Source: an uncultured bacterium
GTDB taxonomy: Bacteria > Verrucomicrobiota > Lentisphaeria > Victivallales > UBA1829
DNA length: 64,000 nt
Direction of reading: 5' to 3'
Assembly (NCBI GenBank): GCA_902802585.1
Contig: CADCMR010000002.1
Span: 152,562 to 216,561 of the forward strand
The position numbers were made by a program, and so were the translations under genes. The notes below the pieces were generated by a model. That model did no database searches. It had not been told where the DNA came from and saw only the letters and a list, made by a program, of their open reading frames with translations. This document shows, one piece after another, positions 26,492 to 40,565 of this stretch (position 1 is its first letter; each line of letters begins with the position of its first letter).

Positions 26492-28858
26492 TCAGTCGTC
26501 GTCTTCCTCTATTTCGATCATGGGCTTCCGGAAGAACCCGGTGGTCCGGACCAGTTCGTCCAGCTTGTCGTCGGGAAGCTTGGATGCCTTCTCGAAACGG
26601 GTCTTGAGCATCTCGGGATCGACGCCGAGGAACAGCGCCCGGACGTACAGGTATTCGCGGAAATCCTCGGACAGCTTCGCCATCTGGGGGCTGTTGATCA
26701 GCGTCACGATGAGCCGGTCCTCGCCCTCTTCTTTGCGGAGCTGATTCCACGCCACGCGCTGCGTTATGTTCGCCCGTCCGTCCCGGACTTTCAGGGAGAA
26801 CGTGGAACCGGAGATGTCTTCCAGCACGCTGTCCTTATATGCTTGGGACTGCGGGAATAGTTTCATGCCGCGAAGCGCCTTCTGGTTCTCGACGAGATAC
26901 TGCAGCAGCGGCGCATTGTTCAGCACCAGGAATTTGCGGATGGAGGAACAGTTCTTCCTCGGGTTTTCGTCGGTGAAATCCTTGTCCGCCAGCAGGTCGA
27001 TCACCAGCCGGAGCGCCTCGGCGCTTTTCTGTTCGTCGCGGATGGTGCCAGGCAGGTAGTCCAGCAGGAGCAGATAGTTCATGAGCAGTTTGGAATCCAG
27101 CAGGGATTCGATGGCGTCCTCCGTCTCTGGATCCGTCTTTCCGGTTTCCGGCTTCGTCGTCTGCGCGGATGTCGCCGGCTGATGTTCAACCTTGAACGTT
27201 TCCGGCTTCGTGACGCCCGAAACGTCGCCGCCCAGAGACACCGCCAGCTGAAGGTCGGAGAGCAGTTTCAGGTATTCATCGACCGCCTTCCGGTGTTCCG
27301 GCAGGAAGATGGATTCAGGCAACCCGGCATCGAGCTTCTTCAGTTCGGTCAATTTCGACTGGGCGGACGCCAGAAGCGCATCCAGGGCGTCGAAATCCAG
27401 TTTTCGCGCTTCTTCCGGCTTGAACGCCGCCGCCAAATCCAGGAGTTCGTTCCGCAGGATCAGCGCGCGGCTCTGGTTTTCGGCGGCACGGAGCGAGGCG
27501 AGCGCCTCGACGGCATCCGCGGGCGCCTTCGGTCCGGCGTCGGCGACGAATTTTTCGACCTGTTTCAGCTCCAGTCCGGAATCCTTGGATTCCTCCCGGA
27601 TCATGCGCCAGCGAGCCAGGTAAAACGCCTCGTCGTGAACGGACGCCTGTTCCTGTTTCCCCTCGGATGCGGGCTTCCCCGTCCCGGACGGCGTGTCGTT
27701 GACAACGGGCGGAGCATCCGCTCCGGATTTTTTCGACACGATGCCGAACACCGCCGCGCCGATCACGGCGAGCAGCAGGACCGCCGCGACCACGACGGCA
27801 AAAACCGGAATGCCTTTTTTCTTCGGCTTCCGGGCGGGAAGCCGTCCGGTTCCCTCTTTCTTCTGCGGTTCCGGGGCGGACGCGTCACGAAGCTCCTGTT
27901 GAATCTGCTTGAGCTCGTCGACCACGTCGCTCCAGGACGCGGGTCGGTTCGCGGGATCCTTCTCCATCAGGGCGTCGACCAAGTCGGACAACCGCTTCGG
28001 GATGTTCGGATTCAGTTCGCACAGCGGCGTCTGGACATCGGAAAGCTGCATGGCGCAGACCTTCACCGGGTCGGTCCCGACGAACGGTTCGTGCCCGATC
28101 AGGATATGATAGGCGGTCGCGCCGAAGGAATACATGTCGGACTTGAATCCGGGGACGTCCTTATCGCCGTTGATGATCTCGGGCGGGGCGTAGGCGGGCG
28201 TGGCGCGGATGTCCTCATCGGCGAGCTCGGGGTCTTTCGCGCGGCGCGCGAGCCCGAAGTCGGCGAGCTTGACCTTCCCGTTCAGGCGCATGATGATGTT
28301 TTCGGGCTTGATGTCGCCGTGGCTGAGCTGGTTGCGCGTCCACGCGTAGGACAGCGCATTCGCGACGGAAATAAAGACGTCCAGCGCCTGCGGGATGTTC
28401 AGCGGCCCGACGTTGTTCAGCACCAGTTCCAGGTTCTCCCCGGTGATCTTCTCCATCACGAAATAATAGATGCCGTCCTCGGTCACGCCCGCGTCGTATG
28501 CCTGCACCACGTTCGGATGCGACAGGCTCGCCGCCGCGCGCGCCTCGCGGAAGAACCGCTCCACGTACACTTCGTCGCTGGCGCTGTCGTCGGACAGGAT
28601 TTTGATCGCGACCTCGCGGTCGAGGTTGGTCTGCCGCGCCTGGTACACGATCCCCATTGCGCCGCGCCCGAGCTCCTCCTCAATCTGGAATCCAGCCACC
28701 ACTTCGCCCGGCCGCAGGTCGCGCCGCAACGGGATGGCGCCGCCGCATTTCTTGCAGAGATACGTCACCGTGCCATCGTCGTGTTTCTGAGGCGTCGTCG
28801 CTTCAAGCTGCTGGCATTTCGGACAGTAGAGCATGGATTCTTCTTCCTGTTGCGCCAT
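26492..28858 (-). CDS. Eukaryotic-type Ser/Thr protein kinase with N-terminal zinc ribbon and C-terminal sensor region
   Basis: A 788-residue protein. Residues 12-39 form a zinc ribbon (CPKC...CKKC). The kinase domain spans about 57-320 with glycine loop GRGAMG, VAIK (Lys86), catalytic loop HGDIKPEN (Asp182) and DFG (Asp200). In place of the usual HRD it has HGD, so it is a non-RD-type kinase that would not need activation-loop phosphorylation. A basic stretch and a membrane helix (350-374) follow, then a 410-residue outer region rich in helices with no known domain recognised. Topology predicts a cytosolic kinase reading an envelope signal. ATG 28834 (MLYCPKC), preceded by AGGAAGAAG, is a plausible alternative start. 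Confidence 0.9.
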   Translation of the reverse strand: MAQQEEESMLYCPKCQQLEATTPQKHDDGTVTYLCKKCGGAIPLRRDLRPGEVVAGFQIEEELGRGAMGIVYQARQTNLDREVAIKILSDDSASDEVYVERFFREARAAASLSHPNVVQAYDAGVTEDGIYYFVMEKITGENLELVLNNVGPLNIPQALDVFISVANALSYAWTRNQLSHGDIKPENIIMRLNGKVKLADFGLARRAKDPELADEDIRATPAYAPPEIINGDKDVPGFKSDMYSFGATAYHILIGHEPFVGTDPVKVCAMQLSDVQTPLCELNPNIPKRLSDLVDALMEKDPANRPASWSDVVDELKQIQQELRDASAPEPQKKEGTGRLPARKPKKKGIPVFAVVVAAVLLLAVIGAAVFGIVSKKSGADAPPVVNDTPSGTGKPASEGKQEQASVHDEAFYLARWRMIREESKDSGLELKQVEKFVADAGPKAPADAVEALASLRAAENQSRALILRNELLDLAAAFKPEEARKLDFDALDALLASAQSKLTELKKLDAGLPESIFLPEHRKAVDEYLKLLSDLQLAVSLGGDVSGVTKPETFKVEHQPATSAQTTKPETGKTDPETEDAIESLLDSKLLMNYLLLLDYLPGTIRDEQKSAEALRLVIDLLADKDFTDENPRKNCSSIRKFLVLNNAPLLQYLVENQKALRGMKLFPQSQAYKDSVLEDISGSTFSLKVRDGRANITQRVAWNQLRKEEGEDRLIVTLINSPQMAKLSEDFREYLYVRALFLGVDPEMLKTRFEKASKLPDDKLDELVRTTGFFRKPMIEIEEDDD

Positions 28859-37355: not shown

Positions 37356-37465
37356 CAGGAAGCAGTGGTTCATTCCTCTGAACAAAGAATATATCGGGGC
37401 CGCAAGGCCTTATTGCACCTACTGTTAAGTTGGAGCGGTATATGAAACCCTGCTTCTGTTTTTTT
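37356..37465 (+). ncRNA. Candidate structured small RNA of about 110 nt, family not identified
   Basis: A gene-free stretch (37155-37632) holds a compact unit: a promoter-like pair, then 37356-37373 that pairs with 37442-37458 (about 15 pairs with two mismatches and a bulge), ending exactly in seven T residues (37459-37465). Inside is a small hairpin GGCC-GCAA-GGCC (37398-37409) with a GNRA-type loop. A long closing stem, an open middle and a T-run end resemble 6S RNA, but it is shorter than usual 6S (160-200 nt) and I see no decisive 6S motif. The 5' AGGAAGCAG resembles part of SRP RNA, but the matching half is absent. No ORF fits. Confidence 0.5.
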
Positions 37466-37520
37466 GCCTTTTTGCGGATTGCGGTTGTTTTTTCCGAATC
37501 CGCTTTTTTCGTTTAGCGGC

Positions 37521-37549
37521 TTGATTTTTTAGCTTTCAGGTATTATGTT
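37521..37549 (+). promoter_or_regulatory. Promoter of the ExbB-like/coiled-coil gene pair
   Basis: TTGATT (37521-37526), 17 bp, TATGTT (37544-37549), about 77 bases before the GTG start at 37633. Confidence 0.55.
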
Positions 37550-37632
37550 AATGTAGTTGTATGAATTTATCCGCATGGCACACTGCGCGGTTGACACAAC
37601 CAAATCAATATCCCGCAAACAGGAGGTATCCC

Positions 37633-38226
37633 GTGAACAAAACGCCTCAGAATACCGGGTCCGGCTCCGGACATTCCGCCCTCATCTACAATATCGCGAT
37701 TGTCGCGCTCGCGATCATCATCATTCTCATCCTGTCGTTCCTCTACAGAAAGAACGATTTCTTCCGTTCGCTCTTCGAAGGCGACGTGACCACCCCGACG
37801 CAGATGGCGAGCGAAAACGACATCCGCGAGGCGGCGAAGAACGTCGAGCAGATCAATAAGACCGCTGCGAACCTTTCGTTCTTCATCCTCATGCTCATCC
37901 TGGTCCTCCAGGCGATAGCGTTCATGATGGCGGCGAAAGTCTTCTCCGGACTGAAGCGAAGCGCGGAAGCGGTCGCGATCCGGCTGAAAAAGCTTGAGAA
38001 CGCCGACCTCTTCCTCGACCTGCCCCTGTACTTCGGTCTGCTCGGCACCGTCTCCAGCTTCATCGTGATGTCCTTCAACCCGAACATCAGCCGCCTGATC
38101 GCCTACTCCTCCACACTCGTCGGCATCATCTTCAGCGTGATCCTCCGCCTGCTCTTCCAGTATCCGCTCAAGCAGGCGCTCATCACCGCCGCCGACGAAC
38201 CCAACGGAAAGGAATCCGAACAGTGA
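37633..38226 (+). CDS. MotA/TolQ/ExbB-like membrane protein (divergent)
   Basis: A 197-residue protein. GTG 37633 is chosen because AGGAGG lies just upstream; an in-frame ATG at 37561 has no ribosome site. Four hydrophobic segments are seen (about 16-37, 80-104, 131-149, 153-175). The third reads LPLYFGLLGTVSSFIVMSF, very like the third helix of TolQ/ExbB/MotA proton-channel subunits (LLGLLGTVxGxI). Compared with ExbB it lacks the long cytoplasmic loop after helix 1 and has a short helical linker instead. Its stop overlaps the start of the next gene (GTGA). Inference: it is the channel part of an ion-driven motor whose partner is the coiled-coil protein. Confidence 0.72.
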   Translation: MNKTPQNTGSGSGHSALIYNIAIVALAIIIILILSFLYRKNDFFRSLFEGDVTTPTQMASENDIREAAKNVEQINKTAANLSFFILMLILVLQAIAFMMAAKVFSGLKRSAEAVAIRLKKLENADLFLDLPLYFGLLGTVSSFIVMSFNPNISRLIAYSSTLVGIIFSVILRLLFQYPLKQALITAADEPNGKESEQ

Positions 38227-40034
38227 ACCGGTCCATTCTCATTGTCACATGCGACTTCCTGGTCCTGGCGGCAATGTCCCTGTCGATCGGGATGAACGAG
38301 GTCGGCGACCCCGCCGGGGCCGCGAAGATTTCGTCGCCCGCGACCCGGCTGGTCGAGATGATCGACGAGGAACTGGCTCGCCACGAGGAAGTGAAGCAGC
38401 AGAAGGACGAGCTGGCGAAACGCCTTGAGGAATTCCGCACGCTCGCGCTCAAGGACGAAAAGCAGATCGCGTCCAAGGACGAGGAGATCAAACAGGCGCA
38501 GGCAAAGCTCGCCGAAACGCTCGCCGCCCTCACACAGTCAAAAAACGAACTCGCATCCGAAAAGACGAAATCCGAACAGGAACAGGTGAAGAGCGCTGCC
38601 GAACTTGCGAAGAGCGCCGCCGAGCTCGCGAAGACGAAAAAGGAACTTGACGAACGCGAAGCCGCGCTGAAGCGTTCCGCCGCGGTCATCGAACAGAAGG
38701 AAAGCGAACTGAAGATTTCCGCGCAGGAACTCGTTGAACGAGACAAGGTCATCCGCGACAGCGAAACCCTCCTCGAAACGAGCGAACGCTCCCTCGCACG
38801 CGTCACGCAGGAAAAGGCCGCCGCGACCGAAAAGCTCCAGCAGAGCGAAAAGAACCTGTCCCGGGCTTCCGGCCAGCTCGAACTGACGAAGAAAGAACTT
38901 GAGGCGCTCCGCGAACAGGCGCGCCTCGACCGCGCGCGCGCCGAAGAGGCCCTCGCGAAGTTCCACGCATCCGAACTCGAACTCGCGGAAACGAAATCCA
39001 AGCTCACGTCCACGCAGACTCAGCTGAACGGCATGGTGCGCGTGCTGGCGGACGTCAATTCCGATCTTTCCAAGACAAAATCCGAGCTTGACAAATCCGA
39101 GCAGTCGCTCGCCGTCTCGAGGGAGACGATCGCCCAGAACGAACGCCTTATGAGCGAGAAGGACCGGACGATCGCGCAGACAGAAACGATCCTGTCCCAG
39201 AAGGACAAGGTGATCGAAGACAAGGACCGCGACCTCTCCGAGACCAAAAAGGAAGCGGACGAGCTGAAGAAGCTGCTCAACAACGACGTCCTCACCAGCT
39301 ACAACGCCTCTGCGCTCGAGCTCTCCTTCCACCTCGTAAACGACCGCCTATTCAACAACATCGTCATCGACAAGTCGTTCTTCCTCCCAGCCGTCACGCT
39401 CGGAGGAAAGACCTGGCTCGTTTCCGCATTCCGCGACACCACCGGACTCAACCTCCACTCCGGCTACACCAAGGTCACGGAACTCCAGTATAAGGTACGC
39501 CGTCCGCAGAGCAAGGATAAATGGTCCGCCGTCAACGGTCCCGCCCTCTGTCTCGCCGAAGACGCACGCGTGTGCCTGTTCCCCGTCGCCGCGGACAAGA
39601 CTGAACCGATCCGCGTGATCACCTTCGGCGCGCTCCGCGAACGCGGGCTCGACAACCTCACGATTTTCAAGTCCGCGACCTTCTCGAAGGATTCCGCCGA
39701 CATCACGGGCCGCTGCTCCGTGAGCATGGAGCAAGGCGACAATTACCTTTACATCCGCAATCCGAACCGCTCCTCCAGCGAGCTGAAGGCGGAAGTCGGC
39801 GACGTCGTGCTCTCGAAGGAAGGATTCTTCGTCGGCGTGGTCGTGAAAGTCTCCTCGACAGACCTCGGGCAGACCTCCACGGCGCAGTGCTTCGTCTTCA
39901 CCGGCGAACCCGAACTGGCGAAAGCGGATCAGCTCCGCCTCACGAAGGAGCCGTCCCAGACGCTCTACTACGACTTCGTGGACAAGCACGAAGCCCTGCG
40001 GAAAGCCACCGAACAGCTTGACAAGAAGAGATAA
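38223..40034 (+). CDS. Long coiled-coil protein with N-terminal membrane helix and C-terminal globular domain
   Basis: A 603-residue protein starting at GTG 38223. It has an N-terminal helix (MNRSILIVTCDFLVLAAMSL), then about 320 residues of unbroken heptad-type Glu/Lys/Ala-rich coiled coil (residues 38-360) and a C-terminal beta-rich domain of about 240 residues (LSFHLVNDRLFNNIVID...VGDVVLSKEGFFVGVVVKV). The GDVVLSKEG-FFVGVV portion recalls the last strands of trypsin-like folds, but no catalytic His/Asp/Ser set was found. One helix plus a long stalk is the layout of a MotB/ExbD/ZorA-type stator arm. Coupling to the ExbB-like gene suggests one complex. The function is not known. Confidence 0.75.
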   Translation: MNRSILIVTCDFLVLAAMSLSIGMNEVGDPAGAAKISSPATRLVEMIDEELARHEEVKQQKDELAKRLEEFRTLALKDEKQIASKDEEIKQAQAKLAETLAALTQSKNELASEKTKSEQEQVKSAAELAKSAAELAKTKKELDEREAALKRSAAVIEQKESELKISAQELVERDKVIRDSETLLETSERSLARVTQEKAAATEKLQQSEKNLSRASGQLELTKKELEALREQARLDRARAEEALAKFHASELELAETKSKLTSTQTQLNGMVRVLADVNSDLSKTKSELDKSEQSLAVSRETIAQNERLMSEKDRTIAQTETILSQKDKVIEDKDRDLSETKKEADELKKLLNNDVLTSYNASALELSFHLVNDRLFNNIVIDKSFFLPAVTLGGKTWLVSAFRDTTGLNLHSGYTKVTELQYKVRRPQSKDKWSAVNGPALCLAEDARVCLFPVAADKTEPIRVITFGALRERGLDNLTIFKSATFSKDSADITGRCSVSMEQGDNYLYIRNPNRSSSELKAEVGDVVLSKEGFFVGVVVKVSSTDLGQTSTAQCFVFTGEPELAKADQLRLTKEPSQTLYYDFVDKHEALRKATEQLDKKR

Positions 40035-40070
40035 CCCCGCGCAACAAATATTTCACCTCAAAATCATTCA

Positions 40071-40105
40071 GGCGGCGCACACCGGACACCATCCGTTGCG
40101 CCGCC
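40071..40105 (+). terminator. Hairpin after the coiled-coil gene
   Basis: A perfect 9-bp stem (40071-40079 with 40097-40105) is followed by GGTTCTTATT; the T-tract is weak. Confidence 0.5.
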
Positions 40106-40193
40106 GGTTCTTATTCCGAGCTCAGGAGTACCTCTCTATAACCGCCGGGCAAAAGACTGAAACGCCGCCCGGCTTCTTCAGGACCGCATCACC

Positions 40194-40565
40194 ATGCAGA
40201 AAATCATCGAAACAATCGTCTCCATCCCCGCCATCTACCGCACGATCTTCCTTCTCATCTGCTCGAACTGCTTCATGACGTTCGCCTGGTACGGACACCT
40301 GAAGAACATGGCGAGCAAGCCGTGGTGGCTGGCCGCCATCGTCAGCTGGGGGATTGCTTTGTTCGAATATCTGCTGCAGGTGCCCGCGAACCGCATCGGC
40401 TACACAACACTCACGCTCGCCCAGCTCAAGATCATGCAGGAGGTCATCACGCTCTCCGTCTTCGTGCCGTTCTCCGTGTTCTTCATGGGCGAGAAATTCC
40501 GCCTCGACTTCGTCTGGGCCGCCCTCTGCCTCTGCGGCGCCGTCTTCTTCATCTTCCGCAAGTAA
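40194..40565 (+). CDS. DMT-superfamily small membrane protein (DUF486)
   Basis: A 123-residue protein with four membrane helices. LLICSNCFMTFAWYGHLK at the N-terminus and QLKIMQEVITLSVFVPFSVFFMGE in the second half are the DUF486 signatures, a family of small drug/metabolite-like transporters of unknown substrate. AGGA lies upstream of the ATG at 40194. It is separated from the coiled-coil gene by a hairpin, so it is likely a separate unit. Confidence 0.85.
   Translation: MQKIIETIVSIPAIYRTIFLLICSNCFMTFAWYGHLKNMASKPWWLAAIVSWGIALFEYLLQVPANRIGYTTLTLAQLKIMQEVITLSVFVPFSVFFMGEKFRLDFVWAALCLCGAVFFIFRK

Follow-up and report, generated by a model that had tools for sequence, protein, structure and literature searches.

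Two overlapping genes, here called A and B, probably encode an unannotated family of ion-driven 5:2 motors with a TolQ/ZorA-like pore, a long periplasmic rod, and a probably inactive HtrA-like end domain. Both lie in a 64,000-nucleotide stretch (hereafter, the window) from an uncultured bacterium of the Victivallales (GenBank assembly GCA_902802585.1, contig CADCMR010000002.1, positions 152,562 to 216,561). Motors of this kind drive flagella, nutrient uptake, cell division, gliding, and phage defense. The A/B family is likely new by its axle and would form a new branch among the motors behind flagella and nutrient uptake; if this is true, the known motors gain one with a dead protease at the end of its axle. 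The family evades the Pfam and NCBIfam models used to count such motors, yet it was present in 96 of 288 sampled genomes of the phylum (a third). Culturable relatives include Victivallis vadensis DSM 14823 (L147, one of the named loci described below) and Opitutus sp. ER46.

Gene A (37633 to 38226, + strand, as are all features below unless stated; GTG start at 37633, TGA at 38224 to 38226) encodes a 197-amino-acid, four-helix TolQ/ZorA-like membrane protein, the predicted pore subunit. Gene B (38223 to 40034; GTG start at 38223) encodes a 603-amino-acid, membrane-anchored coiled-coil protein, the predicted axle. Both are present as open frames, and the sequence bears out the 4-base overlap described in the original prediction, a model's reading of the window made without database searches (B starts at 38223 and A ends at 38226). 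Named genome records held 95 loci encoding a relative, of which 80 were kept; the identical overlap was found in 59 of these, and B starts with GTG in 63.

The two genes were linked in each of the sampled genomes that carry them. By coordinates, B lies directly downstream of A on the same strand in 96/96 genomes of the phylum sample, and it adjoins A in 80/80 named loci, a count that takes in four loci truncated where a contig stops and one disrupted copy; the linkage on which the original prediction had staked itself thus holds. An in-frame TAG interrupts B in draft genome G016 (L048 and L112, one locus); the copy may have decayed, or the assembly may be at fault. In a set of 61 relatives' genomes, the window's own counted, A was found in 28 and B in the same 28. 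All 13 genomes of the window's genus carry the pair; elsewhere in the family its distribution among genera is patchy (8 of 23 members). Each of the 96 phylum-sample genomes had a single A match; a narrow model (A1) and a broad one (A7) gave this same number, with all broad matches at E ≤ 2e-43. Strong B matches (E ≤ 1e-17) were found in these 96 genomes and as an end-domain fragment in draft genome G170 (E 7e-21). At E ≤ 1e-3, the B model matched 150 of the 288 genomes, and among the matches listed, those outside the 96 had best scores of 1e-10 to 1e-3 and, save in G170, lay in the coiled coil. Relatives returned by protein searches numbered 301 for A, 1811 for B, and 1608 for a long form of A (about 8000 candidates scored in the B and long-A searches); organism names among the best 120 of each were Lentisphaeria, Kiritimatiellae, Opitutus, Lacunisphaera, other Opitutae, Opitutaceae, or Verrucomicrobia. 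In a mirror-tree comparison over 74 loci, the distances of A and B correlate at 0.85, which reflects shared descent only.

Hydropathy placed four membrane helices in A (residues 16 to 34, 83 to 101, 130 to 148, and 155 to 173), as originally predicted. Helix 1 (37678 to 37734) lies outside the TolQ-like core; helix 2 (37879 to 37935) contains Q93, which was invariant in two homologue alignments; helix 3 (38020 to 38076; also placed by the TolQ/ExbB profile register) carries the motif GLLGTV; and helix 4 (38095 to 38151) carries AYSSTLVGI. In the profile alignment, Thr139 (38047 to 38049) aligns with Escherichia coli ExbB T148/TolQ T145 and Thr161 (38113 to 38115) with ExbB T181/TolQ T178, and both are predicted to line the pore. 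The LLGTV pattern singled out at the start does lie within helix 3 and is not a chance match: the position aligned to the TolQ/ExbB pore is Thr or Ser in 100/100 homologues. The corresponding helix 4 position is Thr in 95/100 and Asn in 5/100. The A profile scored 29.7 against TolQ/ExbB, with shuffles at 13.8 ± 2.2 (maximum, 20.3; n = 150), which points to remote homology of the pore hairpin to MotA/TolQ/ExbB (PF01618). The last three helices have a predicted TolQ/ZorA-like fold, a TolQ-like fold being what the original prediction had set as its test; the best structural match was a type II ZorAB chain (8vvi_C; 98 residues at 2.3 Å). Two shapes of A were found among distant loci (20 fetched of the 41 phylum-sample matches outside the window's order): short, 171 to 173 amino acids (6 loci), and long, 522 to 583 amino acids (14 loci). 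The long form has an additional N-terminal helix and several hundred residues (helical by eye) ahead of a core common to both, whose helix 3 has Thr or Ser and whose helix 4 has the AY motif.

Protein B likewise follows the predicted plan. Hydropathy confirmed a single N-terminal membrane helix (residues 5 to 23; 38235 to 38291), conserved in homologues and predicted to cross the pore. It contains an aspartate (Asp11; 38253 to 38255), as expected of an ExbD/TolR/MotB-type partner, and the aspartate is found within the helix in 100/100 homologues, at residue 11 in 98 and at residue 13 in the 2 whose B start codon was placed two codons earlier. The coiled coil, first put at about 320 residues, is about 310 residues long (42 to 352; 38346 to 39278); it is well supported because the region is free of proline and its hydrophobicity repeats every 3.5 residues (power, 3.14; best among 1000 shuffles, 2.05). 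It also has only two glycines and 41% charged residues. From residue 40 to the end domain, the linker measured 225 to 450 residues in 76 named loci (median, 292), equal to 33 to 67 nm if fully extended (median, 43 nm), and 176 to 318 residues across 10 distant loci. The rod of the window's B could be about 45 nm if fully extended. The usual width of the periplasm is 20 to 35 nm, so the rod is likely to fold back, tilt, or wind.

The end domain of B (residues 364 to 571; 39312 to 39935), earlier described as beta rich, was predicted to consist mostly of beta strands. Fold searches listed trypsin folds, and the predicted double barrel is that of an HtrA/trypsin-like domain without an intact catalytic triad. 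With the place of the catalytic serine taken from strand order (before an invariant GD), Ser was found there in 1 of 58 relatives and in 1 of 18 rows of a broad alignment; a catalytic-region His was present in no more than 8 of 58 relatives in any column. His stands near the expected protease place in 7 of the 18 broad-alignment rows, none of them with Ser. These seven rows are all long-A lineages (L192, L194, L191, L190, L189, L186, and L177), and the surviving His is possibly the trace of an active protease ancestor. Aligning an end-domain profile with just three sequences, E. coli DegP/Q/S, produced no sensible register, so triad loss is argued from column counts and strand order. On the model, the domain is probably a dead protease-like domain whose catalytic serine place has been lost.

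Neither protein reached a Pfam or NCBIfam family cutoff, nor did four long A forms (one each from L177, L184, L186, and L192). A was absent from the PF01618 matches at E ≤ 10, and B matched 0 Pfam families at E ≤ 10, hence no PF02472 and no ZorB cell-wall-binding, OmpA-like, or PDZ match. The matches of B in NCBIfam and PADLOC were long coiled-coil proteins (best E, 2.4e-6; SMC). The PADLOC scan, which covered both proteins, matched A weakly to KwaA (E 0.0052; 15 bits) and listed no KwaB model for B; an identity of A as Kiwa was set aside on this single weak match and the missing KwaB match. At E 10 or better, neither A nor B had a Zorya model listed, and a sequence search of solved structures with profiles of both returned nothing relevant. 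The open-access literature searched, in the text available, held no description of the pair. To this extent, the original reading of the pair as a candidate undescribed motor stands. The window's genome has ordinary motors elsewhere (6 MotA_ExbB and 9 ExbD matches, with A and B not among them), and the pair is therefore an additional system. The six MotA_ExbB matches lie at C3:57086, C13:110124, C12:44734, C13:54533, C7:63075, and C29:26284; together with the ExbD matches, these are many motors for a 2.6-Mb genome.

Several results weigh against reading the pair as a motor. A Foldseek search with predicted A returned, by itself, no significant match, and HHalign gave a probability of just 5 to 33% for A against TolQ/ExbB. 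The B helix scored, beyond its aspartate, not significantly against two reference sequences, E. coli TolR and ExbD (ExbD proteins of the window's own genome stood outside this score), with 1066 of 2000 shuffles equally good. Because the helix is no closer than shuffled columns, common descent of B with TolR/ExbD is not supported; at the level of sequence, the likeness is one of place and kind rather than of shown descent. The stator logic of the original prediction draws its support from the TolQ/ZorA-like fold predicted for A and from strict linkage.

Known stator systems each share part of this plan. The available text on TPH-vWA motors (PMC12204202, Mol Biol Evol 2025) describes a TolQ-like pentamer gene tightly linked to a partner gene, next to which no TolR/ExbD gene lies; the N-terminal helix of the partner has the proton-binding aspartate and, by prediction, sits in the pore. 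These motors are reported predominantly in Proteobacteria and Verrucomicrobia, and their partner protein, mostly in heterologous pairs, terminates in a von Willebrand A fold. The same text detects tol-pal with PF01618, which A does not match. A/B resembles these motors in its TolQ-like gene and linked partner with an aspartate in the N-terminal helix, without a TolR/ExbD gene beside, but differs in that it has one partner only, with a coiled coil of 310 residues and a predicted HtrA-like pseudo-protease fold. A von Willebrand A domain had no Pfam match in B, and with fold searches listing trypsin folds, another family is still compatible. The partner aspartate is described as a proton-binding or critical residue in the available text on MotB (PMC9389320), TolR/ExbD (PMC12204202), and ZorB (PMC11890865), and in ZorAB it packs against Ser/Thr of the pore subunit (PMC11890865). 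ZorAB shares the core fold of A, but A ends 24 residues past helix 4 and so has no long ZorA-type cytoplasmic tail, no cell-wall-binding domain was recognized in B (Pfam), and no nuclease gene was recognized next door. TolQR/ExbBD (PF01618 and PF02472) shares the two-gene order, the T148/T181-like pore positions, and the Asp in the partner helix; the differences are that no family model matches A, whose four helices leave only short stretches in the cytoplasm, that B combines a long coiled coil with an end domain of another kind, and that no TolA/TonB-like gene was recognized adjacent (by eye). MotAB also has four helices, the last two forming the pore, and a partner Asp near the helix start (E. 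coli MotB D32), whereas A is without the large cytoplasmic domain of MotA, no OmpA-like domain was recognized in B, and no flagellar genes were recognized beside the pair. HtrA/Deg proteases resemble the B end domain only, in the predicted trypsin-like double barrel, and differ from it in their intact catalytic His and Ser and in the PDZ domain, for which B gave no match.

As a motor, A would form a TolQ/ZorA-like pentameric pore, into which B would put its aspartate-bearing N-terminal helix, presumably in a 5:2 assembly. Proton or sodium flow through Asp11 may then turn or pull the coiled coil and end domain, with rotation the putative movement, and the pseudo-protease domain may hold an envelope partner, be it the outer membrane, the cell wall, or a periplasmic protein.

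The pair could instead be a static, TolQ-derived anchor or envelope sensor with a non-conducting pore, in which A holds B, the rod and pseudo-protease bind a periplasmic ligand, and the kinase described below, where present, receives the binding state. We consider this unlikely. In its favor, ion flow is something that we infer, Asn replaces the helix 4 Thr in the 5 homologues noted above, dead protease domains can serve as binding modules, and a kinase with a C-terminal FGE-sulfatase domain would be a plausible signaling partner. Retention of the B membrane aspartate and of Thr/Ser in helix 3 of A, each without exception among 100 homologues, speaks against it, because a channel that had ceased to conduct should lose its buried charged and polar residues. 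We give little credit to the proposal that makes B a lipoprotein of the inner membrane or a coiled-coil protein held by a signal anchor, and A an unrelated four-helix protein with a coincidental LLGT. That no family model recognizes A would suit it, and Cys10-Asp11 resembles a lipoprotein Cys with Asp at +2; the lipoprotein reading was rejected on the homologues, 11 of 100 of which are missing the Cys and none the Asp, and coincidence sits poorly with a profile score above all 150 shuffles and the match of A to the ZorAB chain. A Zorya-like phage defense motor, sensing infection via the envelope and signaling to an effector, is very improbable. In its favor, the best structural match of A is a type II ZorAB chain, with a fold common to defense and flagellar motors. 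Against it, no Zorya model, long ZorA-type tail, or neighboring nuclease or helicase gene (by eye only) was found, and one A per genome and presence throughout the genus are unlike a patchy defense island, though the pair is patchy between family genera.

Returning to the motor reading, the genes behind B bear on what it might do. A Ser/Thr protein kinase gene stands directly behind B on the same strand in 50 of the 75 named loci where the available room exceeds 300 bases (for example, L117, 10484 to 13075); L153, additional to these, has a kinase frame whose first start codon precedes the end of B by 217 bases, beyond the limit set. No such gene was found in the 11 named loci with room in the window's genus (in one, L101, a kinase match lies 2.3 kb further on) or in the 20 distant loci. 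A membrane helix was predicted behind the kinase domain in 41 of 49 frames picked by a motif pattern, and all three kinases scanned had Pkinase and a C-terminal FGE-sulfatase domain. The kinase is possibly a third operon member, and gene order suggests that kinase signaling may be coupled to the motor or to its load in many Lentisphaerota relatives. A fuller version is doubtful at present: an undescribed rotary motor family across Lentisphaerota, Kiritimatiellae, and Opitutaceae, with a 25- to 65-nm rod and a dead HtrA tip, wired in many Lentisphaerota to a membrane Ser/Thr kinase that would report envelope load by phosphorylation. If the motor family is real, operon structure ties it to a kinase in many Lentisphaerota, and motors as envelope sensors become a directly testable question.

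In the window's genome, kinase matches were found at several places, one of them inside window gene 26492 to 28858; those listed cover the kinase part and its near surroundings only, up to residue 418 of 863. This gene (− strand; 788 amino acids; Ser/Thr kinase-like) lies at a distance of 9 kb from A and matches the L117 kinase over the kinase part only; as far as was looked, it is near the motor pair in this window only. Among the window's genes, judged by eye only, no nuclease, helicase, flagellar, or TolA/TonB-like gene was recognized next to the pair, in line with the original prediction. A peptide deformylase-like gene (by eye) lies divergent within 150 bases upstream of A in 5 of the 20 distant loci (L184, L185, L190, L192, and L193) and 4 kb away in one more, and is uninformative. 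The pair had been placed under one promoter; a sigma-70 consensus scan of 37380 to 40250 (+ strand), covering that one promoter type, gave no promoter-like site, which leaves the 4-base overlap as the basis of this claim. Gene A is preceded by a ribosome binding site, AGGAGG (37621 to 37626), and this or a similar sequence also precedes A in other members of the window's genus.
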